DNA from: Candidatus Peregrinibacteria bacterium
GTDB taxonomy: Bacteria > Patescibacteriota > Gracilibacteria > UBA1369 > UM-FILTER-53-11
Direction of reading: 5' to 3'
Length of the DNA: 64,000 bases
Assembly (NCBI GenBank): GCA_016186205.1
Contig: JACPMA010000006.1
Span: 34,039 to 98,038 of the forward strand
The translations under genes were made by a program, and so were the position numbers. Positions 2,426 to 57,843 of the stretch are shown one piece after another; the stretch's first letter is position 1; every line of letters starts with the position of its first letter. The notes under the pieces were generated by a model. The model was given only the letters and a program-made list of their open reading frames with translations, was not told where the DNA came from and did not search any database.

Positions 2426-5400
2426 ATGCCTCCTCCATCGCCTTTCCCGGACGATCATCGATCATCTATCGAAACCGAACCAAGAACTGCGTATGACGAA
2501 CCGCAGTGGCCGGAGAGTCCGGAAACTCTTGCTGAAAGAACTGAAGCAAGACGCATGGCTATGAAGGGCGAATCAGCTCGAGGCAGAACCGATGTTTCTC
2601 TCCAAAATCTTAGCGAACGGACAAAAACCCGCAGCTATGATCAAAAAACGCCGGAACTTATCAATGGAATCGCTGTATCTGAATCGCCGGAGGAACAGCA
2701 AGAAAAGCTAGATGCGCTTCGCGATGTTTCCGTGATTATGCTCGCGACGCTTTTATATAATCATCCTGATCTCGAGAAAAAATTCGATCTTGCTGATTTT
2801 GCGAATATTCCCCTCTTTGGAGAAACTCTCGCGCAAAGCAATCCGCGTCCTGCGGAAAATACCGCATTTCATAAATTGCGGGAATTGCGGGATCATCCGG
2901 AATCTGAAACGGCAAAATATTTTAGCCGCGAATGGCCAACGCTCGTAAGTCATGCAAGAGAGATAAGTCGAGATATCGGCGTTGTAGCGAGTACCGATTT
3001 CACTCAAGCTCTTCAAGAATCCGATCGATGGACGGTTCGGGGAGCCATTGCAAGCATGCCGAAACCGGTGAAATATGGATTGGCAATAGCAGGGGCTGTT
3101 GCTGGATTTTTTCTTCTACGCGGAATTTATCGAGCCTTTACAAGAAGCAGCGATGAAGCTGAAAAAGCCGGTGATCAAAAAGATGAGAAACCAAAAAGCA
3201 AGTGGGGATGGCTAAAATGGGCTATTGGCGGTGCGCTTGCGGTTTTTGGCTTTGGCTATATTTTTGGTTGGGATAAAACTATTGATTGGATCAAAAAGCA
3301 AGGAGGGCGTGCAAAAGAAGCTTGGGATAAACTTTTCGGCGAAGATCCTGAATTTGCAAAAAACAAGGAAATGTATACCCGCATGGCCGGCCGCATAGGA
3401 AATGAAATGAGCGGAGGCGATGCAAAAGTAAAAATCGATCCTAAATTTTTAGCTTCGCGGCATAATGACAAATACGAAGATGTTATCGATGATGATTCAT
3501 GGGTCTATAAAAACACAATCGAACCTGTACTTGATAGCGATGCTATGAGTTCGGTGGCAAAATATCTTCCAGGCCATCCGGTTTTTACAAAAGAGGAACG
3601 GAACCAGTACAGAGCCATCCGCGCATATCTCCAGGGAACAGACCGACAAGCGCTTATTGCTGAAATTGGAATCGGCTCTAATGCCACGCTCGGCGATGTA
3701 CTTGCAAAACTCGATGAGAAACTCAATGAAAAAGAAGGCGTCCAGGCCAAACCGGGTGAAAGAGCGGCAGAATGGAACTTGGCACGTGTTGAAGGCAGCA
3801 TGCTCCCCTACTTTAAAGAAAATTACGGCACGGAAATTGCGCCAGAGGATTTTCGTAGAATCACAAACTTTTCGTACAGAGATTTCATGGCAGGAAAAGG
3901 AGCGCGTTCATATTTTGAATCTCTCCGTGGCGCAGCTCGCGAAGCTGGTGCGGAAGCAGGCGTTACAACTGCAACAACACCTGCGGAACAACGGCTTATT
4001 GATGCGGAAAATATCGTACGGAGGTTCTTTCTCGATCATGAAGATCTTTTGAGCTCGCTTCATCTGCCGGATTCTCTTCCGGCCGGAGCTACTGTCGGCA
4101 GCGTTATGCTTGCTTTGCTTAAAGCTGGAAAATTAGATGAATTGAAGAAAAAAGACACAACGGAAACGCTTCAGGGAATCATTGTCAAAGACGATGAGGT
4201 GGAAGGCTCGCGGCATCGTGATGAAATTGCGAAAAAACTTCCGGAAGATTTGTGGAATCTCTACCGTTCGCAGAAAAAAGAACTTCGCAATCTCGTCGAC
4301 AGCGGCAATTATGCAAAAACAGGCGATGCTCAAAAACTCATGGCTGTCGGCCGCGACTTGATCGACAAAATAAACAAAAAAGCCATGGAAGAACCGGATA
4401 AGAAAAAACGGAATGCCATCTTTGCTTTAGCCAGCGGCGTGCGGGCAAAAATAGCGAGCCTCGAACATGCCCTCAAAGAAAGAACCGATGCGTGGCATTC
4501 TTTTGATCATGCTTTAGAAAATAATCCTTCAACAGACAGCATTCATGAAGCATTCCTGCAAGTCATGGGGAAAAATAAGGACGTATCCAACGCCTATGCG
4601 GATCTTGAAAAACCGCTTGTTGAGGAACGAAAATGGCGTTCGGTTGGCATAGTCGTTGCGCTCCAAGGACTGCGCATCGGTTACATTCACTATACTACTC
4701 ACGATATATACAAAGCTTGGCTCGAAAATTATTATGGAAGATTCGGCGTGCCGACCGCTTTGGTAAAAAGGCTTAACAAACGCGTGCGGCGTCCGGCGTC
4801 AGGCATCGATCTGCTCAAAAGACAAATTTCAGAAGGAGAAGATCGATTAAGAGGAAAACTCGCGAATGATTTAAAAACCCGTGCGAAAGTCACGGATGAA
4901 TCTGCTCCGCTTCCTTCTGAAAAAGAAATAGCGGGATTTAATGATCCGAATCACAGAACAGCCATGCGCAGATATAAATCGGAAAAGGCGCTTTTGGAGC
5001 ACAATCGAAAATTGCTCGATTTAGAACGGGAAGTGGCTGATCTTGAACGCGATGCTTCGCTCTTGCGCAAGCGGCCGAGCGATCCAACTGTTGTTGCAAG
5101 TCTGACTGCCATCGAAGAACAGCTCGCTGAAAGAGGGCCCGCGCTTAAACAGCTCCGCATGGACAGAATTGAATTGAGCAAACAAGCTCTCGGACATGCT
5201 ACGGAAGACCTCTATAAAAATCTCGATGCGGCGGCGAGAAAAGGCGCGCTTACGCCGGATGAATTTGGACAGCTCGATGATTTGGCGCGAAGATCAGCAG
5301 AACATAATCGGGAACTTATGCGGGCCGGGGATGGATTACTCAAAGATATTCAGCGGGCGGCAGCCAGAGGCGATGCGGCTGAAGTCGCCCGCCTGCAAAA

Positions 5401-6382
5401 AATGTTTAATGATACCATCGCGGAAATTCCAAAAATGCAAAAGGGCGCCATTGGAAGATTCTTTGATTTTATCGGCACCTTTTTTAGAGAAAGAAAAAAC
5501 ATCAGCCGATCGGTAGTGGATACTGAACTCAATGATATAGAACGAAAATCATTCAGAAAAGTTTTTGCGCACTTGCTCCACTGGCAGCGGGAAAAAGCCG
5601 CACCTGCAGCCGTCACCACTGAAAACATGTCGATGCTCCGCATAGTTGGAAAAAAATTGCGCTTCTTTAAACTCGCCGTTGGAGGAAGTTTGGCTGCTGC
5701 AGCCGGCGTTGCTACAAGAGATAAACAAACCGGCGTTCTACCGGCTATTGGCCACGCGGCTTTTGATATCGCCCCGTTTACCGGCGAATACTCCGATTTT
5801 TATGCATTAGCAACCGGCAGACAAATTTTCACCGGCAGAAAAATCGGAAAGTTTGAACGATTTGTTGTACGGCCTGGTTTCGGGCTTTTAGGGCTTGCAT
5901 CAGATGCTTTATTGGTGTTGAGCTTTGGTACAACATTCGGAGTGAGCGCCGGCGTTTCGAGTCTCAAAGGAGCTTATGGAGCTGCGAAATTGGCGAAAAT
6001 GGGCGGCGAAGCCCTTGCAAAAGGTGTTGTGAAAGGAGCGGAGAAAGAAGCTGGAGCTAGGATTGGAGTAAAAGCTGTAGAAACTGCAGGAGAAGCAGCA
6101 GCAAAAACTTTAGCGCGAGAAACAGCTGAAGCAGGAGCAAAGGTTGCGGCAGAAACCGGGGCGACCGAAGTAGGAAAATTAGCCACTGTCCTACGGAGAA
6201 TACAAAAGGGCGGAGCTGTTGCAACCGTCGGACTCGGCATTGCTGGACTTACCATGAGTCTTATTCAGAGTGACGAAATAGAAGCCACGCCTGCCATGGA
6301 TGCTATTGCCGGAGGAGCTGATGGAAAAATAGACGATATAGACATCGAAAAACTTGCCGAAGAAGCCGGCGATGCGGAGTGA
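2426..6382 (+). CDS. Large membrane-associated protein of unknown function (1318 aa)
   Basis: I do not recognise this family. The N-terminal 200 residues are charged and Pro-rich. Two strongly hydrophobic segments follow at about residues 216-238 and 260-285, separated by a short Lys/Glu-rich linker, so the long remainder would lie on one side of the membrane. Residues about 780-1010 look like coiled coil (Glu/Lys/Leu-rich). The C-terminal 200 residues are Ala/Gly-rich with hydrophobic stretches near 1152-1178 and 1262-1280, and the tail is acidic. It is preceded by a clear promoter and followed by a convergent gene, so it is probably a single-gene unit. A structural or envelope role is only a guess. 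Confidence 0.85.
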   Translation: MPPPSPFPDDHRSSIETEPRTAYDEPQWPESPETLAERTEARRMAMKGESARGRTDVSLQNLSERTKTRSYDQKTPELINGIAVSESPEEQQEKLDALRDVSVIMLATLLYNHPDLEKKFDLADFANIPLFGETLAQSNPRPAENTAFHKLRELRDHPESETAKYFSREWPTLVSHAREISRDIGVVASTDFTQALQESDRWTVRGAIASMPKPVKYGLAIAGAVAGFFLLRGIYRAFTRSSDEAEKAGDQKDEKPKSKWGWLKWAIGGALAVFGFGYIFGWDKTIDWIKKQGGRAKEAWDKLFGEDPEFAKNKEMYTRMAGRIGNEMSGGDAKVKIDPKFLASRHNDKYEDVIDDDSWVYKNTIEPVLDSDAMSSVAKYLPGHPVFTKEERNQYRAIRAYLQGTDRQALIAEIGIGSNATLGDVLAKLDEKLNEKEGVQAKPGERAAEWNLARVEGSMLPYFKENYGTEIAPEDFRRITNFSYRDFMAGKGARSYFESLRGAAREAGAEAGVTTATTPAEQRLIDAENIVRRFFLDHEDLLSSLHLPDSLPAGATVGSVMLALLKAGKLDELKKKDTTETLQGIIVKDDEVEGSRHRDEIAKKLPEDLWNLYRSQKKELRNLVDSGNYAKTGDAQKLMAVGRDLIDKINKKAMEEPDKKKRNAIFALASGVRAKIASLEHALKERTDAWHSFDHALENNPSTDSIHEAFLQVMGKNKDVSNAYADLEKPLVEERKWRSVGIVVALQGLRIGYIHYTTHDIYKAWLENYYGRFGVPTALVKRLNKRVRRPASGIDLLKRQISEGEDRLRGKLANDLKTRAKVTDESAPLPSEKEIAGFNDPNHRTAMRRYKSEKALLEHNRKLLDLEREVADLERDASLLRKRPSDPTVVASLTAIEEQLAERGPALKQLRMDRIELSKQALGHATEDLYKNLDAAARKGALTPDEFGQLDDLARRSAEHNRELMRAGDGLLKDIQRAAARGDAAEVARLQKMFNDTIAEIPKMQKGAIGRFFDFIGTFFRERKNISRSVVDTELNDIERKSFRKVFAHLLHWQREKAAPAAVTTENMSMLRIVGKKLRFFKLAVGGSLAAAAGVATRDKQTGVLPAIGHAAFDIAPFTGEYSDFYALATGRQIFTGRKIGKFERFVVRPGFGLLGLASDALLVLSFGTTFGVSAGVSSLKGAYGAAKLAKMGGEALAKGVVKGAEKEAGARIGVKAVETAGEAAAKTLARETAEAGAKVAAETGATEVGKLATVLRRIQKGGAVATVGLGIAGLTMSLIQSDEIEATPAMDAIAGGADGKIDDIDIEKLAEEAGDAE

Positions 6383-20720: not shown

Positions 20721-21659
20721 TTAATATCCATATGTAATCACCTCCGGATAGGTGGAGGCAAACCATTTTCCCCATGTGCCGTCCTTTTTCATGCCATCTT
20801 TAATCTCCGCTACGCGCTTAAAATATTCTTCTTTGGAATACGGCACATTCAAAATGGAATATTCCACATGATTCAAGCTCGCGCACCCGAAACAATCGTG
20901 GCTGTTATACACGAGTTCGCAATAGGTTAAATTATTTGAATACCAGCACCCGCTGCAAAACATGCAATTATTCAGATTGCCGCCGCTCATAATTTCAAAA
21001 CACTCCTCTGCCCAACCTAAATGCGTCACATCGTAGAGATTTTTTGCATCATCGCCGTTATACGTGTAATAGCAATCATGGAGTCCGAAAGAATCAAACA
21101 CCCAAAAACAGTCTTTGCAGTTTCGAATATTATCCCCGTAGCTTCCTTCATTATTTTCGCCGTACATGGCATTGCGAGGAACACTTGCGAGAAGCGGTTC
21201 AAGTCGAGGATAAATTTCAGCCGGAGACAGCTTATTTAATGCCGCAACTTCGCTCAAATACTCCTCCTTTTTATATTGCTGATTGAAAATGCAAAAAGAT
21301 TTTTGCCGCAATCCAACGCAGCCGAAACAATTTTGAATATTCACGCAATCATAACAAAAATTTGAGTCGGTTGCCTGGCGGCAGAGCACGGAATAATTGC
21401 AGTTATAGCAATTCACACCATCCACGCACTCATAACAGAGTTCGGATTTTTGCATTTGCGCGCAGTCCACGCAGTCTCGGCAATAAAAAACTCGATGATT
21501 ATAAATACAATCTTCCGCCGTGTAGCTCGCAAAAGTCATATAGCAGTTTTTGCTTTTTTCCGTGTACTGGCAAAAAGGGCTGTTTTCATTCTGAACGCAT
21601 TGGAGGCCTATGTGCGGCTTTTTGAGGCGGAGACGTTCGAATTCTTCGAGAAAATTCAT
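20721..21659 (-). CDS. Cys-rich repeat protein, paralogue 1
   Basis: 312-aa member of a family represented three times in this window (also 56884 and 58684). I do not know its function. About a tenth of the residues are Cys, most in C-x2-C, C-x4-C or C-x5-C spacings, in short repeats of the form NCYxxF / DCxxC; this suggests a metal- or FeS-binding repeat fold, possibly a beta-solenoid. Two copies of a module ending CFGC(V/A)GL/SLN...Y.I.N..YSKEEY, each followed by a short helix, divide the chain in half. The frame is open upstream, but MNFLEEFERLRLKKP matches paralogue 2 exactly in position, so the start is 21659. Divergent from ribE. No signal peptide. Confidence 0.88.
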   Translation of the reverse strand: MNFLEEFERLRLKKPHIGLQCVQNENSPFCQYTEKSKNCYMTFASYTAEDCIYNHRVFYCRDCVDCAQMQKSELCYECVDGVNCYNCNYSVLCRQATDSNFCYDCVNIQNCFGCVGLRQKSFCIFNQQYKKEEYLSEVAALNKLSPAEIYPRLEPLLASVPRNAMYGENNEGSYGDNIRNCKDCFWVFDSFGLHDCYYTYNGDDAKNLYDVTHLGWAEECFEIMSGGNLNNCMFCSGCWYSNNLTYCELVYNSHDCFGCASLNHVEYSILNVPYSKEEYFKRVAEIKDGMKKDGTWGKWFASTYPEVITYGY

Positions 21660-21674
21660 AATGGGGCTGCGTGA

Positions 21675-21680
21675 TATAAT
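21675..21680 (+). promoter_or_regulatory. -10 box of ribE
   Basis: TATAAT 10 nt before the ribE ATG, in the 31-bp gap between ribE and the divergent Cys-rich gene. Confidence 0.6.
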
Positions 21681-21690
21681 CTTTAGCGCT

Positions 21691-22269
21691 ATGTTTACCG
21701 GTATTGTACGCGAAATCGGCCGGCTCGCCAAAAAGACTCCTGGAGGAAAAGCCGGGATGCATCTCTCTATTTTGAGCAAAAAAATGCGGCCGCAAATTGG
21801 GGCGAGTATTGCGGTGAATGGCGTCTGCTTAACAATAACCAAAAAAACGCCGGGCGGATTTATGGTTGATGTGGTGAGCGAAACGCTTGCACGAACAAAT
21901 CTTGGAAAGCTTAAAACAAACGCTGCGCTGAATTTAGAACCAAGTATGAAAATTGATGACGCACTGGACGGTCATTTTGTACTCGGACATGTAGATACAA
22001 CATGCAATGTAATTTCAAATGGAAAATATCTCACGATAGAATTGCCGAAAAAACTTGCGCAATTTATTGCGGAAAAAGGATCCGTAGCTTTGAACGGCGT
22101 CAGCCTTACAGTGGCGGCTGTAGCGAAAAATTCTTTTACCGTAGCCCTTATTCCTTTTACCAAAAAACATACCAATTTGGGGGGGTTAAAAAATGGTGAT
22201 TCTATTAATGTAGAAATTGATATACTTGCCCGCTATGCACATCGCTATAATCGTCTCGCAGTTCAATAA
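21691..22269 (+). CDS. ribE: Riboflavin synthase, alpha subunit
   Basis: Dismutates two molecules of 6,7-dimethyl-8-ribityllumazine to riboflavin. It has the two duplicated lumazine-binding barrels: MFTGIVREIG...SIAVNGVCLTI and, in the second half, GHFVLGHVDTT...SVALNGVSLTV, with TNLG near the end. The start is fixed by the invariant MFTGIV. 192 aa. It overlaps ribH by 35 bp, so they are an operon. The earlier genes of the pathway (ribA/B/D) are not nearby. Confidence 0.96.
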   Translation: MFTGIVREIGRLAKKTPGGKAGMHLSILSKKMRPQIGASIAVNGVCLTITKKTPGGFMVDVVSETLARTNLGKLKTNAALNLEPSMKIDDALDGHFVLGHVDTTCNVISNGKYLTIELPKKLAQFIAEKGSVALNGVSLTVAAVAKNSFTVALIPFTKKHTNLGGLKNGDSINVEIDILARYAHRYNRLAVQ

Positions 22270-35315: not shown

Positions 35316-36689
35316 GAGCGCTGAAATCTCATCGATTTTGATACGCTCCTGTTTCATCGTGTCACGATCGCGGACCGTAACGGTTTTGTCATCAACAGTT
35401 TGAAAATCAACGGTAAAGCAAAATGGCGTTCCAAGTTCATCATGTCTTCGATACCGCTTGCCGATGGAGCCGCTCTCGTCATATTCCACAGCGAAATTCT
35501 TTTTGAGCGTTTCGAAAATTTCGCGCGCAGCAGGGCCGAGTGGATCTTTCTTCATAAGCGGTAAAATCGCCGCCTTCACAGGCGCAATATTCGGCGGAAA
35601 CCGCAGTACAACGCGCGATTCCATGCCGCCTTTTTCCGTCGGCGCCTCATCTTCATCATAGGCTTCCAAAAGTGCCACTAGCACGGTCCGATCCAAACCG
35701 AACGACGGCTCAATGCAATGCGGAATAATTTTTTCATTCGTCTCCGGATCAAGATATTCCATTTTCTCGCCGGAAAATTTTTCATGCTGCTTGAGATCGA
35801 AATCCGTGCGATACGCCAAACCGGAAAGCTCGCCCCATCCAAATGGAAATTTATATTCCGTGTCCCATGTTTCCTTTGAATAATGGGATAATTCGTCTTT
35901 CTCGTGCTGACGCCACCGAATGCGTTCTTTAGAAATTTTCAAAATTTTCTCAAAAAAATGCTCAACGTCTTTCTTCCAAGATTCATAGCGCGGCTTCCAT
36001 TCTTTTTCGCGAACAAAATATTCGATTTCCATTTGCTCAAATTCGCGCGTGCGGAATGTGAAATTCCCAGGCGTAATTTCATTGCGAAACGCCTTGCCGA
36101 TTTGCCCGATGCCAAACGGCAAACGCTTACGCGTAGTCTGCTGCACATTCTTAAAATTCACAAAAATCCCCTGCGCGGTTTCCGGCCTCAAATAGACCAT
36201 CGCCGCATCTTCTTCAATCACGCCTTGATAGGTTTTAAACATGAGATTAAAGGATCGTGCTTCTGTGAAATCACACGCGCCGCACTTAGGACACGGAACT
36301 TTGTGGGTTTTAATAAGTTCAGAAATTTGCTTGAGAGATTTTCCAGCAACCCCCTCAATGCCCAATTTTTCCTCAAGGAGTTTATCGCCGCGCACGCGTT
36401 CCTTACACTTTTTACAATCCATCAAAGGATCGGAAAAACTCGTCACATGCCCGCTTGCCTCCCAAACGCGCGGATTCATCAAAATCGATGCATCCAAACC
36501 GACCATGTCCTCCCGATCCTGCACAAAATACTTCCACCAGGCGCGCTTCACGTTATTTTTAAGTTCAACTCCATACGGCCCGTAATCCCACGTATTCGCA
36601 AGACCGCCATAAATTTCCGAACCCGGAAAAATAAATCCGCGGCGTTTGCAGAGAGAAACGAGCTTTTCCATGGTCGCTGCAGATTTCAT
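35298..36689 (-). CDS. glyS: Glycyl-tRNA synthetase (alpha2 type)
   Basis: Class II enzyme of the dimeric eukaryote/archaeon-like type rather than the alpha2beta2 bacterial type. Seen: SEIYGGLANTWDYGPYGVELK, a four-Cys insertion (CKKCKERV ... CPKCGAC) probably binding zinc, RPETAQGIFVNF, GKAFRNEITPGNFTFRTREFEQMEIEYF (motif 2) and EPSFGLDRTVLVAL (motif 3), followed by the anticodon-binding domain. 463 aa. TATAAT (36699-36704) is 9 nt before the ATG and overlaps the dtd stop. Confidence 0.96.
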   Translation of the reverse strand: MKSAATMEKLVSLCKRRGFIFPGSEIYGGLANTWDYGPYGVELKNNVKRAWWKYFVQDREDMVGLDASILMNPRVWEASGHVTSFSDPLMDCKKCKERVRGDKLLEEKLGIEGVAGKSLKQISELIKTHKVPCPKCGACDFTEARSFNLMFKTYQGVIEEDAAMVYLRPETAQGIFVNFKNVQQTTRKRLPFGIGQIGKAFRNEITPGNFTFRTREFEQMEIEYFVREKEWKPRYESWKKDVEHFFEKILKISKERIRWRQHEKDELSHYSKETWDTEYKFPFGWGELSGLAYRTDFDLKQHEKFSGEKMEYLDPETNEKIIPHCIEPSFGLDRTVLVALLEAYDEDEAPTEKGGMESRVVLRFPPNIAPVKAAILPLMKKDPLGPAAREIFETLKKNFAVEYDESGSIGKRYRRHDELGTPFCFTVDFQTVDDKTVTVRDRDTMKQERIKIDEISALLLHYP

Positions 36690-48329: not shown

Positions 48330-49877
48330 ATGAACAAAGTTCTTTTAATTATATTGGATGGCTTTGGGGAGGGAAAAGCGTATCCCGGCAATGCCATTAC
48401 TTTGGCCAAGACGCCGACTATCACGGCGCTCAAGAAAAAATATCCGTGGATGCTTTTGAAAGCATCCGGCGAGGCGGTTGGGGTTCCGGAAGGAACGCAG
48501 GGAGGATCGGAAGTCGGGCATTTTACAATAGGTGCTGGACGCGTGGTTTTTCAGCAGCTTGAAGAAATAAACCGTGCGATAAAAGACGGAAGTTTTTTTC
48601 AGAAACCGGCGCTACTCGAAGCGTGCAAGAAAAAAACGCTCCATTTACTCGGCATGATTTCGGATCAAGGCGTGCACGCGCATTTGGCGCATCTCTTTGC
48701 GCTCCTTGAACTTGCAAAACGCCAAAAGGTGGAACGGATTTTTATCCACGCGATCACGGACGGCCGCGATGTGCATGAACGTAGCGCCGCAGAATTCATA
48801 AAACAAATTCAAGAAAAAATCATTGAACTCGGACTGCAAGACCGAGCAAAAATCGCCACAATAATTGGGCGCTATTTCGCCATGGACCGCGATGAAAATT
48901 GGAATCGGCTGCAGCCTGCATATGATCTTTATGCGCTCGGAAAAGGCATAAAGGAAACGGATCCGGTTCAAGCAATTGTGAACGCTTATAAACGCGGAAA
49001 TGAAACGGATTATTATATTGATCCGATAGTCTTAGAACCGCAGGCAACGATACATGATAAGGATGCGGTAATCTTCTTCAATTTTCGAAGCGATCGGGCG
49101 CGGGAAATCACATGGGCTTTTACAGGCGAAAATGACCCCAAAACCGGGAAACAGGTAGAAATAAAAATCGATAAACCAATTCGGCCGTATTTTGTATGCT
49201 TCGGGCCATATTCCCAAAAAGCGCCGGTTGTTTTTCCGACTCCTGCGGTAAAAAATAATCTCGGCCAAGTTTTGGCGCAGCATAAACTCAAACAATTCCG
49301 ACTCGCTGAAACTCAAAAATATGCGCACGTCACATATTTTTTTAACAGCCAAATCGAGGAACCGAATCCAGGCGAAGACCGCATGATGATCGAATCAAAA
49401 CGCCGGCACAGCTATGCGGAAATTCCGGAAATGAGCGCCAAAGAAATAACTGACGTGCTTCTCGAAAAACTCGCGGGGAAAAAATACGAATTTATTGCGG
49501 TGAATTTTGCGAACTGCGACCTCGTTGGTCATTCCGGCGATCTCAAAGCTACAATCAAAGCCGTGGAAACCATTGATACATGCCTCGGACGCATCATTCC
49601 GCAAGCGCTTAAAAATGACTACGTTACATTTATTACCGGTGATCACGGCAATGCCGAATACATGATTTATGAAGACAGCGGAGAGCCATGTCCGAGCCAT
49701 ACGAAAAATCCGGTGCCTTTTGTCATGGTGAGCTCGTCGAACCATGACAAAGTCACCATTCGACAAGCTCATGGTGACAGTTTTGCCGAACTCAAGGATA
49801 TTGCGCCGACTATTCTGAAAATTATGGAACTGCCAAAACCCAAAGAAATGACTGGCAAAAGTCTTATTCAAAAATAG
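48330..49877 (+). CDS. gpmI: Cofactor-independent phosphoglycerate mutase
   Basis: Interconverts 3- and 2-phosphoglycerate with two manganese ions. Starts LLIILDGFGEGKAYPGNAI; the phospho-Ser is in GGSEVGHFTIGAGRVVFQ; later HAITDGRDV, FFNFRSDRAREI and FITGDHGNAEYM with the metal ligands. 515 aa. Near the C-terminus (about residues 465-483: SSSNHDKVTIRQAHGDSF) there is extra sequence encoded by two REP-like palindromes in frame, between VPFVMV and the conserved IAPTILKIM. With pgk and pyk it completes the visible lower glycolysis. Confidence 0.95.
   Translation: MNKVLLIILDGFGEGKAYPGNAITLAKTPTITALKKKYPWMLLKASGEAVGVPEGTQGGSEVGHFTIGAGRVVFQQLEEINRAIKDGSFFQKPALLEACKKKTLHLLGMISDQGVHAHLAHLFALLELAKRQKVERIFIHAITDGRDVHERSAAEFIKQIQEKIIELGLQDRAKIATIIGRYFAMDRDENWNRLQPAYDLYALGKGIKETDPVQAIVNAYKRGNETDYYIDPIVLEPQATIHDKDAVIFFNFRSDRAREITWAFTGENDPKTGKQVEIKIDKPIRPYFVCFGPYSQKAPVVFPTPAVKNNLGQVLAQHKLKQFRLAETQKYAHVTYFFNSQIEEPNPGEDRMMIESKRRHSYAEIPEMSAKEITDVLLEKLAGKKYEFIAVNFANCDLVGHSGDLKATIKAVETIDTCLGRIIPQALKNDYVTFITGDHGNAEYMIYEDSGEPCPSHTKNPVPFVMVSSSNHDKVTIRQAHGDSFAELKDIAPTILKIMELPKPKEMTGKSLIQK
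49723..49778. repeat. Two inverted REP-like palindromes inside gpmI
   Basis: First unit 49723-49747, stem TCATGGT/ACCATGA around GAGCTCGTCGA; second unit 49752-49778, stem GTCACCAT/ATGGTGAC around TCGACAAGCTC. The cores are complementary, so the pair is arranged head to head like a small BIME. The frame of gpmI is kept. Confidence 0.8.
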
Positions 49878-50826
49878 GCCGCAGAGCGGCGACCGTCCGA
49901 TCATCAGGACCAAAATGGAAGTTTACTTCTGAACCTTGTTCGGCATTCACAGAAGCCGCCACAAGCAAATGTTCGACTTTTGACGAAAGAGAAGCATCGG
50001 AACATGCAATTTCGCAAAATTGCGGAAGCGGTACATTGCCATGCGCGCCATCCGTCGTTAAATAAAATTCATCTTCATGTTCCGCCTGCATATGGCTGAC
50101 TACAGGAAAATCGCAATCATTAACAGCGCCGCTCAAAAAGCGCGTCATAGCCCCGCGATACTGCAGTACATTTTCAAGGCGCTTCCTGCGGAGTCCGCGC
50201 GCTCTTAAAAATTCTCTAAATTGAGCGGATGTTGTAATTTGGTCAATTTGCCTCTGCCATTCAAAAAGGCGACTCTCTCCATCGGGAAGGCGCAACAGGG
50301 CGTGATTCGCCATGCTGTGATCAGCTGTCATACATGTGATGCTATCTCCCCTCCTCCGATACAAACGACTGTCGCCGAGATGGCCGGCAGTTAAAATATG
50401 ACGACCTTTTTTATCGCGCCAATATTTTCCAACCACAGCCGTTGTGCCGATTCCGCTCTGCACATTGTTGAGGATCACCTTTTTCCTTATCTCTAGCCAA
50501 ATAAGCTCAAAAATTTTCTTCATGGTTTGTTCCATCTGCCGTATTGTTTTCGGCCCTTTAAAGAGTTCAAACGCCACAGGACTTCCTAAAAATTCCTGCG
50601 CTGCCTGGCTTGCTAAAATCGAAAGCGGGTTACTGCTCATTCCGTCAAAAACGCCGACAATGCCCTCTGCTTCGTCAACAAAAAATGTATCAAGGTTCGG
50701 ATCCGACTCGTTTCTTGGCAAACTGCGGCCAAAAACTTCGCACTTAAGCGGAGATTCCTGAACTGCTTCCGGAGCTTTCACGGCCTCCGGTTCATTTTCT
50801 GGCTTTCTTGGGGTATCAACTGGCAT
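49864..50826 (-). CDS. PP2C-family protein phosphatase
   Basis: Metal-dependent Ser/Thr phosphatase (PPM type). After a Pro/Glu-rich, probably disordered 30-residue start come the motifs GVFDGMSS (D61, G62), GTTAVVG (128-133), TAGHLGDSRLYRRRGD (D152), YLTTDGAHG (D259) and GPDDRTVAAL (D308, D309), all metal or phosphate ligands of the family. 320 aa. It lies 11 bp downstream of the FHA-caspase gene and is cotranscribed with it, so it probably reverses the phosphorylation that the FHA domain reads. No kinase is in the window. Overlaps convergent gpmI by 14 bp. Confidence 0.9.
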   Translation of the reverse strand: MPVDTPRKPENEPEAVKAPEAVQESPLKCEVFGRSLPRNESDPNLDTFFVDEAEGIVGVFDGMSSNPLSILASQAAQEFLGSPVAFELFKGPKTIRQMEQTMKKIFELIWLEIRKKVILNNVQSGIGTTAVVGKYWRDKKGRHILTAGHLGDSRLYRRRGDSITCMTADHSMANHALLRLPDGESRLFEWQRQIDQITTSAQFREFLRARGLRRKRLENVLQYRGAMTRFLSGAVNDCDFPVVSHMQAEHEDEFYLTTDGAHGNVPLPQFCEIACSDASLSSKVEHLLVAASVNAEQGSEVNFHFGPDDRTVAALRPIFE

Positions 50827-50837
50827 AATTACAAAAA

Positions 50838-51833
50838 TTATTTGCGGCGCACAGGGCTCATTCTGCTCACCAATTCAATATGGCTTGTATCATGAGCTCT
50901 CACAACTTGCCGTCCTTGAATGCGCGGATCTTGCATAACGCGTTCAACTAATCTCCGCACATCGATACGGTGCGGTTCTGTTTTCAGCACTCTGCGAAGA
51001 GCATTGGTTGTATAACTGCAATAAGCTTCTCCCTTATGCCCGACGAGCGCTGCGTGCTGCGGAAAAGGCTCGTGCCTTGCCATCGCATGCGTATGGCAAC
51101 CATCGAGAATTATCAAAATTCTTCCGCGGAAATTCTCAAGCAGAGAAAAAAGTTCATTTGGACTTAACAACTCTTTTCCAAGCGAAAGACTTCCATCTTC
51201 CTTTCCGTGTCCTAAAAAGAAAAAGAGGAAAAGCGAATCCTTTGTCGCATACCTCTGCAAAACCTCCAAGCGCCTCCGTATATTTTTCAAAGTTGCGTCA
51301 GCATCAAAAAGCGTATCAATATTCCCGCGGAATCCGCGCGCTTCAAACTCCCTTCGAAGATCTCCTATATCGTTGGCGATATCAGGCAAATCATACCCTC
51401 GATGTCCGACCATAAGGCCATAATTGGTATCACTTTCTGAATCGGGCGATATTCTTAATTGAAAGCGGACTGAATTGACCGCCAGTTGTAATTCGTCATC
51501 TCTGCGCAGCGGCATTTGCCTATTGCCCGGAATTTTCTCTCCGTTTACATACGTCCCGTTTAGAGAATAAAGATCGACTATTCGAAAATCGCCTGTTGAA
51601 TCCCGCGGCGGATAAATGAGCACGTGATTGCGGGAAACATGAGCATCGGGATCTTCAATTTTTATCACCACCTTTGCATCAGTGAGCATTTCTCCTCGCA
51701 CACGATTTGTACGAGGAGCAGCAGAACTTGATCTTCCAAGATGGGTTACATCATCAATCACAATAGTCTGGCGCTCACCATCAGCTTCTATGCCAAAATC
51801 ATCAACCCGAACGAGTTTTGCTTTTAGAGACAT
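50838..51833 (-). CDS. FHA domain fused to a caspase-like (C14) protease
   Basis: Residues about 25-128 are an FHA domain with its phosphothreonine-binding signature: LGRS (R34), HVSRNH (S67, R68, H70) and LNGTYVNG (N92, G93). Residues about 136-325 fit the peptidase C14/metacaspase fold: YGLMVGHRGYDLPDIANDIGDL, then the catalytic dyad in FFFLGHG (H209) and IILDGCHTHA (C246). 331 aa, cytoplasmic (no signal). Consensus promoter, leaderless. FHA domains read phosphothreonine and the next gene is a PP2C phosphatase, so protease activity or target choice is probably set by phosphorylation. Possible roles are regulated proteolysis or cell-death/defence; I infer the role, the domains are visible. 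Confidence 0.9.
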   Translation of the reverse strand: MSLKAKLVRVDDFGIEADGERQTIVIDDVTHLGRSSSAAPRTNRVRGEMLTDAKVVIKIEDPDAHVSRNHVLIYPPRDSTGDFRIVDLYSLNGTYVNGEKIPGNRQMPLRRDDELQLAVNSVRFQLRISPDSESDTNYGLMVGHRGYDLPDIANDIGDLRREFEARGFRGNIDTLFDADATLKNIRRRLEVLQRYATKDSLFLFFFLGHGKEDGSLSLGKELLSPNELFSLLENFRGRILIILDGCHTHAMARHEPFPQHAALVGHKGEAYCSYTTNALRRVLKTEPHRIDVRRLVERVMQDPRIQGRQVVRAHDTSHIELVSRMSPVRRK

Positions 51834-51840
51834 GGGGTTG

Positions 51841-51868
51841 ATTATAAATAGTCCAGCGATTTTGTCAA
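51841..51868 (-). promoter_or_regulatory. Consensus promoter of the FHA-caspase / PP2C operon
   Basis: Minus strand: TTGACA (51868-51863), 16-bp spacer, TATAAT (51846-51841), 7 nt to the ATG at 51833. Perfect boxes and leaderless geometry. Confidence 0.85.
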
Positions 51869-51892
51869 CTAGTCAATTTGGCTTTTTCTACT

Positions 51893-52018
51893 TATAATAA
51901 ACCGGCTATGAATAATTCTTCCTTGCTGCGAGCGCACAGCGCGAGCGCGAAGGCCGAAAGCGAAGGAGCCCGAGCGTCCCCGCGATGGGCGACTGAGCGA
52001 GGCCTAAGCTTATAAAAT
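51893..52018 (+). other. TATAAT, GC-rich hairpin repeat and 35-codon frame before manC
   Basis: TATAAT at 51893-51898 is followed at 51908 by a short open frame (35 codons to TAA 52011) made of GCGAGCGC-type repeat. The GATGGGCGACTGAGCGAGG part faintly resembles the 119-bp element. The frame is probably repeat sequence inserted between promoter and manC rather than a gene. Confidence 0.45.
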
Positions 52019-53550: not shown

Positions 53551-56500
53551 ATGTTCCGCAAAACTTCTGTCCGCATCGCTCTTATCATCCTCTTTGCTCT
53601 CCTTCTCGGCTATTACGATCTTCCAAGCTCATACCAAAAAATTCCAGGCACGCCGGATGCCTTTGAAAAAGCCAAAGTCCACCTCGGCCTTGATCTGCAA
53701 GGCGGATCGCAGCTCGATTACAAAATCGATCTTCGAAAAGTTCAAGAAAAAGACCGGAAGGCCATTGTGGAAGGAGTAAAAACCGTCATCAATCGCCGCG
53801 TGAATTCGCTGGGAGTTTCGGAACCGAATATTTACACGTCGTCGATCGGCAATGAACAACATCTTATTGTCGAACTTGCTGGCGTGAAAGATCTTAATGA
53901 AGCCAAAAAAATCGTAGGAAAAACCATTCAGCTTGAATTTAAAGAGAAACGCGAAAAAGAAGATCCGAATTACAAACAAACCATCCGCACGCTGGCGCAA
54001 TCTATTTTGAAAAAAACGACTGATCCAAAAATTTCTTTCGAAGCTATCGGCGAAGAAGAAACCCATGCTTCGCCGGGAAAAGTACGATTTATTGACGGAG
54101 ATTGGCTGTTCCAAAGCCAAATTCCGGATGAGAAACTTGCAGCAGCCATTTCGCAAGCTCCTATTGGAAAAGTTCTCCCGCGTGTTCTTGAAAGCGAAAC
54201 TTTCAAAGGACTTTTTATAATAAAAATGCTGGAAAATAGGAGTGCCGCCGATCTTCCGTCGGATGAAAAATCCCTTCAGGTAAGCCATCTTCTCATTTCT
54301 TATCGCGGCGCCGAGAAAGCCTCTGAAACCGTTACGCGCAGCAAAGAAGAAGCGGAAAAACTAGGCAAAGATTTATTAGCACAACTCAAAGCAGGAGCTA
54401 AATTTGAAAAACTTGCGAAAGAAAATTCTGATGATACGGGCTCAAAAGATTCCGGAGGCAAACTGCCCGGTCCGGTGAAATCCGATGGCGGTTATGTTCC
54501 TTCTTTTACAAATGCCGCATTGAAGCTCGCGCAAGAAGGAGAATATTCCGAAGTTACGGAATCGCCGTTCGGCTTCCATATCATACGCGCGGATGATTTC
54601 ACTCAAATAAAATACCAACAGATTTTTGTTTCAACAGAACCTGATCCATGGCAAGAAACCGGTTTATCCGGCGAGCAATTTGAACGTGCCGATGTAAGCT
54701 TTGATAATTTTCTCCAGCCGACCGTTTCAATAAAATTCAATGAAGAAGGCGCCAAACTTTTTGAAGAAATCACGGCGCGCAACGTCAATAAACCTGTGGC
54801 GATTTTTGTCGGCGGAACGCTTATTTCCCAGCCAAACGTGAATGAAAAAATTTCCGGCGGGGATGCGGTGATTACCGGAAGATTTACAGTAGAAGAAGCA
54901 CAGGCGCTCGCGCGGGATCTAAATACCGGAGCAATTCCGGCGCCTGTGATTTTAAGCGGACAATATACAATCGGCGCCACGCTTGGGCAGGAAGCGCTTT
55001 CCACAAGTCTCAAAGCGGGCATCATCGGACTCGTCATTATCGCGATCTTCATGGTTCTTTATTACCGTCTGCCTGGATTTGTTGCTGTTGTCGCGCTCGG
55101 CATATATACGGCTCTATTACTCTTTCTTGTTAAATCAGAACTTCCTCTGCCTGTTGCGCTCGGCATCGCAGTTCTCGTTTTTATAGCCATAATTTATCAA
55201 ATTTTGCGATCAAAAGAAGACGGATGGGAAAAATTCGTCACGTTTGTGCTTGCGTGTTTCGTGCTTTTTTTCGTCACGTTTCTTTTGAGCAACGCCGTGG
55301 TTCTGACGCTCGCCGGCGTGGCAGGCGTAATACTCTCCATCGGCATGGCGGTTGATGCAAACATCCTCATTTTTGAACGCACAAAAGAAGAAATCCGCGC
55401 AGGCCGTCCCCTTTCCTCCGCCATCGATGTCGGTTTTGACCGCGCATGGAGTTCGATCCGCGATTCAAACTTTTCCTCGCTCATCACTTGCGCAATCCTG
55501 TTTTATTTTGGAACTTCCATCATTCAAGGATTCGCTTTCAACTTGGCTGCCGGCATTTTGATTTCCATGTTCACGGCCATTACGATTACAAAAACTCTTC
55601 TCACGGCCGTTATGCGCACGCGTTTGGGTGAAAAATTCTGGCTCTGGGGCGTATCGCCTTCGGGGGCGGATCACAAGACATATCATATTATTGAAAAAAC
55701 GAAAGTATGGTTTACGCTTTCAGGCAGCGTGCTTGCAATAAGCCTCGTAGTGCTTGTCATATTCGGACTAAAACTCGGTATTGATTTTAATGGCGGGACG
55801 CTACTCGATATCACGTTTTCAAAACCTGTGACTGCCGAAGAAATAAAGGGCGAGCTGAAAAATATTCAGGAAGTGTTAAATGCCGACGCTGCTTCCGGAA
55901 AAACTGCACTATCAAGCAACCCTGCGCTTGAAAGCGGGAAAAAATCAATAGAGCTCGTTAATGGACGTATTGTGCCGAGCGGCGAAAATCAAGTTCTCAT
56001 CAATATAGAGCATATCGATAATGAAACGCATGAAAAAATCCTTGGCAGCTTGCAGAAAAAATTCGGCGAAGTCACGGAAAATCGCTTCACGACAATAGGT
56101 CCTGTGGTTGGAGAAACGCTCAAGAAAAAAGCGGTATTTGCGGTAATCATCGCTATGGCCATGATTATTCTCTATATCACTTTCGCATTCCGAAAAATTC
56201 CGAAGCGCGTGAGTCCGTGGAAGTTCGGCGTGTGCGCCATTGTAGCGCTTATGCACGACGTGCTGATTCCCATAGGCGTATTTGCTGTTTTTAGATTCGA
56301 GGTGGATGCGCTTTTTATAACTGCTATTTTGACTGTCCTTGGCTTTTCTGTGCATGACACAATCGTAGTGTTCGACCGTATCCGCGAAAATTTAAAATAT
56401 CAGGAACGCGATGAAACTTTTACCCATGTCGCCAATAAAAGCATGTCGCAAACTATGGCACGGTCCATCAACACCTCACTCACTACGCTCATCACTTTGA

Positions 56501-56640
56501 TGACGCTTTTGCTGTTCGGCAGCGCTTCGATTTTCAATTTCATTCTTGTTCTTGTGATCGGCATCGTTGTGGGAACATATTCTTCGATTTTCATCGCAAG
56601 TCCGCTCCTCGTGCTGTGGCAGAAAAAATCGCAGCAATAG
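53551..56640 (+). CDS. secDF: SecD-SecF fusion with an inserted parvulin domain (1029 aa)
   Basis: Proton-driven accessory of the Sec translocon. SecD part: N-terminal helix, VHLGLDLQGGSQLDYKID, then the P1 region. Inside P1, residues about 242-352, sits a parvulin/PpiC-type peptidyl-prolyl isomerase domain (LQVSHLLIS, AKFEKLAKENSDD, GGKLPGPVKSDGGYVPSF, SEVTESPFGFHIIRADD). The SecD membrane block follows (GMAVDANILIFERTKEEIRAG), then SecF (GIDFNGGTLLDITF, VHDTIVVFDRIRENL). Fused SecDF is common in some phyla; the isomerase insertion is unusual. It would face outside, where it could help fold emerging proteins. The frame is continuous. Confidence 0.95.
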   Translation: MFRKTSVRIALIILFALLLGYYDLPSSYQKIPGTPDAFEKAKVHLGLDLQGGSQLDYKIDLRKVQEKDRKAIVEGVKTVINRRVNSLGVSEPNIYTSSIGNEQHLIVELAGVKDLNEAKKIVGKTIQLEFKEKREKEDPNYKQTIRTLAQSILKKTTDPKISFEAIGEEETHASPGKVRFIDGDWLFQSQIPDEKLAAAISQAPIGKVLPRVLESETFKGLFIIKMLENRSAADLPSDEKSLQVSHLLISYRGAEKASETVTRSKEEAEKLGKDLLAQLKAGAKFEKLAKENSDDTGSKDSGGKLPGPVKSDGGYVPSFTNAALKLAQEGEYSEVTESPFGFHIIRADDFTQIKYQQIFVSTEPDPWQETGLSGEQFERADVSFDNFLQPTVSIKFNEEGAKLFEEITARNVNKPVAIFVGGTLISQPNVNEKISGGDAVITGRFTVEEAQALARDLNTGAIPAPVILSGQYTIGATLGQEALSTSLKAGIIGLVIIAIFMVLYYRLPGFVAVVALGIYTALLLFLVKSELPLPVALGIAVLVFIAIIYQILRSKEDGWEKFVTFVLACFVLFFVTFLLSNAVVLTLAGVAGVILSIGMAVDANILIFERTKEEIRAGRPLSSAIDVGFDRAWSSIRDSNFSSLITCAILFYFGTSIIQGFAFNLAAGILISMFTAITITKTLLTAVMRTRLGEKFWLWGVSPSGADHKTYHIIEKTKVWFTLSGSVLAISLVVLVIFGLKLGIDFNGGTLLDITFSKPVTAEEIKGELKNIQEVLNADAASGKTALSSNPALESGKKSIELVNGRIVPSGENQVLINIEHIDNETHEKILGSLQKKFGEVTENRFTTIGPVVGETLKKKAVFAVIIAMAMIILYITFAFRKIPKRVSPWKFGVCAIVALMHDVLIPIGVFAVFRFEVDALFITAILTVLGFSVHDTIVVFDRIRENLKYQERDETFTHVANKSMSQTMARSINTSLTTLITLMTLLLFGSASIFNFILVLVIGIVVGTYSSIFIASPLLVLWQKKSQQ

Positions 56641-56883: not shown

Positions 56884-57843
56884 ATGAATTTTCTTGAAGA
56901 ACTTGAGCAACTACGGCTTAAAACGCCGCGTATACACAATATTAATATCGGTTCGGAAAATTCGGACTACTGCACGCATTCGGACAAAAATAAAAATTGC
57001 TACCTTCTATTTGCGGCGAATTTCAATGAAGACTGCCTTTATGGCGGCATTGTGCTGAATTCCCGCGATTGCATGGACATCAATTACTGCGAGTACTCGG
57101 AGCTCTGTTACGATTGCCTCGACATCGACCACTGCTATAACTGTATGACGAGCCAAGATCTGAAAAACTGTTCCGACTGCAAATTTTGCTATGACTGCGT
57201 GGGATGCCAAAACTGCTTCGGATGTGTTGGGCTGCGGCAAAAACAGTACCATTTTTTCAATGAACCGCTTTCAAAAGAAGAATATGAAAAAAGAATTGCA
57301 GCATATGATTTTAAAAACCGTGAAACATGGAAGCAGATTTTCCCTCCATTCATAGATCTCATGAAAAAAATCCCTCGACGGGCCGCACACTTAACGCAAT
57401 CCGAAAACTGCACCGGTGAATTTGTAATCCGCAGTAAAAATTGCTTCGCCTGTTTCGACGCCCACGAATCGCAAGACTGTTTTTATCTCCAGGACGTGTG
57501 GCGCACAAAAGACTCTGCGGACCTAACATTTTCAGACGGCACCGAGCTCTGCTACGAATGTTTTTCGCTCGGCCTCGGATGCTACAACTGCAATTTCTGC
57601 AATTTTATCCGTGGGTGTTCTGACTGCGAATACTGCGAACTCTGCTTCAATTGCAAACACTGCTTTGGCTGCGTTGGCTTACAAAGCAAAGAATTTTATA
57701 TTTTGAACCAACCTTATTCGCGCGAGGACTATTTTAAAAAAGTGGCTGAAATAAAAGCTCAAATGCGCGCTGAAGGTGCTTACGGCAAACATCTCCCAAC
57801 GACATACAAATATGAAGATACGGCGGCAGTGTATTGGAAATGA
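56884..57843 (+). CDS. Cys-rich repeat protein, paralogue 2
   Basis: 319 aa, about 40 Cys. Same organisation as paralogues at 20721 and 58684: start FLEELEQLRLKTPRI, then dense repeats (CDIDHCYNC-like CLDIDHCYNC, CSDCKFCYDCVGCQNC), the module CFGCVGLRQKQYHFFNEPLSKEEYEKRI, a helical spacer, a second repeat half (CYNCNFCNFIRGCSDCEYC) and again CFGCVGLQSKEFYILNQPYSREDY. The CxxC spacing would suit binding of several Zn or FeS centres in a repeat fold. No signal peptide or membrane segment. Role unknown. Its 3' side carries a palindrome. Confidence 0.88.
   Translation: MNFLEELEQLRLKTPRIHNINIGSENSDYCTHSDKNKNCYLLFAANFNEDCLYGGIVLNSRDCMDINYCEYSELCYDCLDIDHCYNCMTSQDLKNCSDCKFCYDCVGCQNCFGCVGLRQKQYHFFNEPLSKEEYEKRIAAYDFKNRETWKQIFPPFIDLMKKIPRRAAHLTQSENCTGEFVIRSKNCFACFDAHESQDCFYLQDVWRTKDSADLTFSDGTELCYECFSLGLGCYNCNFCNFIRGCSDCEYCELCFNCKHCFGCVGLQSKEFYILNQPYSREDYFKKVAEIKAQMRAEGAYGKHLPTTYKYEDTAAVYWK

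Follow-up and report, generated by a model that had tools for sequence, protein, structure and literature searches.

An FHA-caspase gene followed by a PP2C phosphatase gene

The window, the whole 64,000-nucleotide stretch analysed here of a contig from a small-genome Candidatus Peregrinibacteria bacterium, contains two adjacent minus-strand genes whose products bring together an FHA domain, a caspase-like (Peptidase_C14) domain and a PP2C-type phosphatase. The upstream gene, P0001, joins the first two domains in one open frame, and P0002, which encodes the phosphatase, begins 11 bp downstream on the same strand. A preliminary description of this DNA, made from its letters alone, had given coordinates for both genes, and they were found exactly at those places:

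50838..51833, minus strand: FHA-caspase fusion gene P0001, 331 residues, an open frame with FHA and Peptidase_C14 above Pfam cut-offs
51447..51833, minus strand: FHA half of P0001, residues 1-129, with the Pfam FHA match at residues 52-117 and core residues R34, S67, R68, H70, N92 and G93
50853..51437, minus strand: caspase (C14) half of P0001, residues 133-327, with the predicted dyad His209 (51207-51209) and Cys246 (51096-51098)
49864..50826, minus strand: PP2C-type Ser/Thr phosphatase gene P0002, 320 residues, assigned by profile, by a sequence match to a solved structure and by fold

The FHA match of P0001 scores 46.5 bits against a Pfam cut-off of 20.7 (5e-12), and the Peptidase_C14 match 28.1 bits against 21.4 (2e-6). 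Structure prediction gives the C14 half a caspase-clan, metacaspase-like fold, in keeping with the caspase-like domain first described. By profile, His-Cys dyad and modelled fold P0001 is a C14 member, with predicted proteolytic activity, and by profile and core residues its N-terminal half is an FHA domain, for which phosphothreonine binding is predicted. The residue two before Cys246 is acidic (D244), as expected of a metacaspase; we take an acidic residue at this position to be the metacaspase S1-pocket motif that favours Arg or Lys.

The assignment of P0002, also made in the preliminary description, is borne out by an NCBIfam PP2C match (4.3e-17), by sequence comparison with the solved tPphA (8.5e-6), and by a predicted PP2C fold in which the metal-site aspartates are present, which places it in the PP2C superfamily. 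No Pfam PP2C model matches it at E<=1, and the Stp1/IreP equivalog NF033484 reaches 62.4 bits against a cut-off of 230. The predicted model contains low-confidence extra stretches, with a predicted local distance difference test score (pLDDT) below 50 at residues 170-181 and 215-239. The protein database holds one clear homologue, P0007, whose own PF13672 score of 23.8 bits falls short of the cut-off of 24, and two more at ~1e-4; among 59 close relatives P0002 is found in the window genome only.

Two further minus-strand features bear on transcription of the pair:

51841..51868, minus strand: promoter-like site TTGACA-N16-TATAAT, a 12/12 consensus match ending 7 nt before the ATG of the fusion
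49877..49894, minus strand: hairpin plus trailing T-run that overlaps the 3' end of the PP2C gene, a possible terminator; the number of such sites is within that expected by chance

Exact TTGACA-N16-TATAAT sites occur twice in the window, against 0.09 expected, and the consensus promoter noted earlier ahead of the fusion is indeed there; from its position a leaderless transcript carrying both genes is predicted. An exact TATAAT is also found 6-9 nt ahead of the ATG in other long frames, at 36689 (minus), 45514 (plus) and 56884 (plus), so leaderless starts may be common in this genome.

Conservation of the fusion and of its neighbours

A protein database search with P0001 returned four homologues beyond the query, the nearest being P0003 (59% identical, on a 9.8-kb contig); a search with a seven-row alignment adds P0013, and two further matches of that search share the FHA part only. 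An eight-row alignment (A4) was assembled from P0001, database homologues, and Woesearchaeota and Peregrinibacteria loci, and all eight members carry FHA and C14 domains above cut-off. A chance fusion is thereby ruled out, since both domains are above cut-off in 7/7 of the other members.

Searched with a fusion profile, the window's phylum gave 1/379 genomes and the close relatives 1/59, in each case the window genome itself. A separate PF00656 search of the phylum (2/379) overlooked the window's own gene, is therefore an undercount and was not used. The fusion is more frequent in the phylum of G422, the Candidatus Woesearchaeota archaeon that is the source of locus L003, where 18/371 genomes match at E<=1e-6; this is an archaeal phylum, and the other matched genomes are taken as archaeal from being drawn from it. 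A Pfam scan of ten proteins from nine of these genomes found FHA and C14 above cut-off in eight. The remaining two have FHA with Peptidase_C13, a family of the same clan as C14, one just above cut-off (L086, 23.3 bits, cut-off 22.8) and one below it (L078, 18.1), and both were retained in the larger alignment described below. With G422 itself included, FHA with C14 is counted in 9/371 genomes, or 10/371 with the FHA and C13 protein of G528, while eight of the 18 matched genomes (G486, G533, G600, G648, G703, G725, G734, G754), which matched weakly or over the caspase half and lay outside the Pfam scan, were left out of the count. An exact-peptide-pattern search of the contigs gave only two fusion loci, the profile search many more. 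G532 has a second match, L077, to the FHA part.

A larger alignment of 18 rows (A5), with members 19-63% identical to P0001, is invariant at just seven columns, G33, S67, H70, G93, G208, H209 and C246. Next come R34 and D244 (17/18 each, with Glu replacing D244 in the other member), N92 (16/18) and R68 (15/18). The intact FHA domain and His209-Cys246 dyad first reported for P0001 are therefore family features, with S67, H70 and G93 kept throughout and none of the 18 aligned members lacking the dyad, and a degenerate caspase is ruled out. Such conservation suggests both halves have been kept working within one chain. In the seven other A4 members 14-24 linker residues separate the two halves of the caspase domain; P0001 has none at that place, and because these residues are missing it would probably stay one unprocessed chain. 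L087 likewise has none. Its genome, G494, holds two highly divergent FHA and caspase-like proteins, L087 (7100-8182) and L078 (1210-2289), both on long branches.

The phosphatase does not share this conservation. At 11 other fusion loci (in G422, G423, G615, G635, G723, G440, G460, G592, G532, G528 and G494; 9.4-15.4 kb each), a PP2C profile (A3, E<=0.1) found no adjoining PP2C gene (0/11), although it recovers P0002 itself and also gives PP2C-like matches in the G422 and G423 genomes. For L003 and L004 the absence was confirmed by reading the open reading frames (ORFs); L083 and L080 are each close to the end of a contig and were covered on one side only, and the second copy in G494, L078, is outside this count. 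Nor did a kinase HRD-type motif appear at the same loci, in a scan that relied on a crude regular expression and had no positive control at these sites. The preliminary description had proposed a two-gene system, and had said that homologues regularly lacking this neighbour would count against its proposal; that is what the loci show, and the phosphatase as a regular partner is not supported. On these 11 loci a conserved two-gene operon is rejected, and the conserved unit looks like the FHA-caspase protein, with the PP2C gene a local recruit.

An extra stretch between gpmI and manC

Both genes lie between gpmI and manC, where the window has a stretch that related genomes lack:

49878..52018, no strand assigned: 2141-bp stretch of the gpmI-manC interval without counterpart in relatives, from gap comparison
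51907..52018, plus strand: dispersed GC-rich repeat, intergenic and recurring in the genome, on the manC side of this stretch

The flanking genes are named by Pfam matches, manC being the divergent gene upstream of the fusion. Apart from the window's own, 27 manC loci came out of a search of 31 genomes, and 15 of them have a co-oriented gpmI upstream. In 12 of the 15, among them all five other same-family genomes searched, -4 to 50 bp separate the two genes; the gap is 153, 500 and 628 bp in the other three, and 2141 bp in the window. None of the 27 loci matches P0001 or P0002.

The GC-rich repeat has 12 further occurrences in the genome (E<=2.3e-5), one of nearly full length and the rest pieces of ~24-51 nt; no convincing direct repeats bound the stretch. 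Its GC content (45-49%) does not stand out, and GC at third codon positions, 0.393 for the fusion and 0.438 for the PP2C gene against 0.453-0.489 in four nearby genes, is a weak hint of transfer. Searches of viral contigs, plasmids and phages gave no match, leaving a mobile or viral home unsupported; in PHROGs there is nothing for P0001 and one function-unassigned family for P0002 (9.4e-8).

In a tree of the 18 proteins P0001 pairs with P0003 (98/96), and the two belong to a nine-member clade (98/99) of two bacterial, two archaeal and five metagenome rows. The tree is unrooted and so gives no direction of transfer, and the very long branches of L087 and L078 are of unsure placement. We infer lateral acquisition of the pair, and an archaeal source for the fusion is suggested by the larger number of fusion-bearing genomes counted in the archaeal phylum.

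A proposed model of phosphorylation-directed proteolysis

FHA domains read phosphothreonine and PP2C enzymes remove phosphate. From these known roles we infer each step of a scheme that is their most economical reading, in which P0001 would dock through its FHA domain on threonine-phosphorylated proteins, and docking would concentrate or activate the caspase domain locally. Such proximity activation is the mode of eukaryotic initiator caspases. The caspase domain, through its predicted His209-Cys246 dyad, may then cleave the marked proteins or itself, and P0002, acting on the same mark, would strip off the phosphate and so return the system to its starting state. It is likely that a phosphorylation signal aims the protease; for the whole sequence of an FHA-metacaspase that docks on phosphothreonine and cuts, and an adjacent PP2C that resets it, we put the chances at about even.

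Several observations weigh against this model. The preliminary description had found no kinase nearby, and this extends to the whole available genome, in which PF00069 gives no match at E<=0.001 and hence no Hanks-type kinase, the HipA, RIO and APH families being outside the search. The sole weaker match (0.067) falls in an ORF with HExxHxxGxxH, which we take to be a metallopeptidase motif, and a kinase elsewhere in the genome was rejected on these results; one could lie in the missing part, as the assembly is 91.94% complete. PF00069 kinases are present in 33/59 relatives, including the same-family G121, G380 and G382, though not G379 or G381. To these are added the replacement of R68 in 3/18 and of N92 in 2/18 A5 members, the missing linker, by which processing of P0001 would differ from that of the seven other A4 members, and the absence of PP2C from the other fusion loci.

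That absence favours an FHA-caspase acting alone, as it would at every locus lacking a PP2C neighbour, with the PP2C an independent passenger on a shared promoter and the phospho link accidental. The unequal record of the two proteins agrees with it, P0002 having its one clear database homologue at 35% while the fusion has one at 59%. It would nonetheless be a notable coincidence for a phosphothreonine reader and an eraser to lie 11 bp apart and both be absent from the relatives' gpmI-manC junction, and we regard this account as a real but rather unlikely possibility. We think it improbable that the FHA domain serves assembly or docking without regard to phosphorylation, the caspase being controlled otherwise, for example by calcium or oligomerisation. 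The missing kinase and the losses of R68 and N92 would fit, but the phosphatase is adjacent, and Ser67 (18/18) and Arg34 (17/18), phosphate-contacting positions in known FHA domains, are kept.

The lack of an own Hanks-type kinase could also mean that the marks are foreign: kinase activity from a phage, host or rival would mark non-self, the FHA-caspase would fire and kill or arrest the cell, and the PP2C would clear stray marks. A patchy distribution and a lineage-specific stretch are consistent with this tripwire, the PADLOC caspase model matches 14/18 members, and in the KKP system, as outlined in PMC11341870, a phosphatase restrains a phospho-based toxin. We nevertheless give it only a slim chance, for no defence genes were recognised among the window ORFs adjoining the pair, viral contigs, phages and plasmids gave no match, and G422, a fusion carrier, has kinases of its own. 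Were it true, the FHA-caspase family would serve tiny archaea and tiny bacteria alike as a caspase-type switch for death or defence, triggered by phosphorylation. One of the kinase matches in G422 (contig 54, 7548-10754; L013, L017) lies ~2 kb from a PP2C-like fragment; the G422 fusion sits on contig 37, apart from this pair.

A two-gene unit of less than 2 kb would offer a direct test, in a laboratory strain, of whether a phosphorylation mark can switch or aim a caspase-like enzyme in a prokaryote.

Other features of the window and phylum

Elsewhere in the window, 53551-56640 encodes a protein of SecDF type whose SecD half carries an inserted PPIC-type rotamase domain (residues 231-349), and 2426-6382 a protein of 1318 residues that matches PT-TG (pre-toxin TG) over positions 1111-1147. 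Two similar-looking cysteine-rich proteins are encoded at 20721-21842 (minus) and 56884-57843 (plus), the second without a Pfam match. In G151, another genome of the window's phylum, a LexA/S24-like repressor gene, so assigned by reading its sequence, is followed by a caspase-domain gene (L005, 472-1116 and 1501-2442).

Comparison with known systems

P0001 resembles prokaryotic metacaspases and orthocaspases in its above-cut-off C14 match, Cys-His dyad and metacaspase-like fold, and differs from them in its N-terminal FHA domain. A 2012 survey of 671 prokaryotic metacaspases lists partners including WD40, TPR, Sel1 and NACHT; its relevant parts do not name FHA, which may be among the rarer types (PMC3501461). 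FHA and caspase domains are given as separate conflict-system modules in the relevant parts of the closest papers, PMC8195603 and PMC7159879, and a full-text literature search, covering few subscription journals, found no published FHA-caspase fusion. The literature searched thus shows no other case of a caspase-type protease sharing a single chain with a reader of phosphothreonine. The survey counts metacaspases in 5/114 archaeal genomes (PMC3501461), and no clear archaeal caspase homologues are recognised in PMC3615174; caspase-fold proteins with intact dyads are now placed in small-genome archaea, where few or none were counted before.

The nearest NCBIfam model, caspase_w_EACC1, is matched by 17/18 members at E<=0.001, with P0001 at 19.3 bits against a cut-off of 140. 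EACC1 systems, as summarised in PMC7159879, have an N-terminal caspase followed by C-terminal domains that vary, with an EACC1 gene for a membrane protein on the 5' side, whereas the P0001 caspase is C-terminal, after the FHA domain, and its upstream neighbour is the divergent manC, with no EACC1 gene adjoining. A single-sequence comparison of the FHA half with the PDB places OdhI (0.001) and GarA (0.002) among the nearest matches. Both regulate metabolism as free-standing FHA proteins and carry no protease domain. Unlike Stp1/IreP, PstP and tPphA, P0002 scores under the equivalog cut-off, has low-confidence extra stretches and lacks an adjoining kinase gene. KKP, as outlined in PMC11341870, also combines FHA and PP2C in one phospho-based module, and here too a phosphatase would restrain an effector; KKP has two Ser/Thr kinase genes beside its PP2C, where the available part of this genome gives no PF00069 match, and the effector in this case would be a protease in place of kinases.
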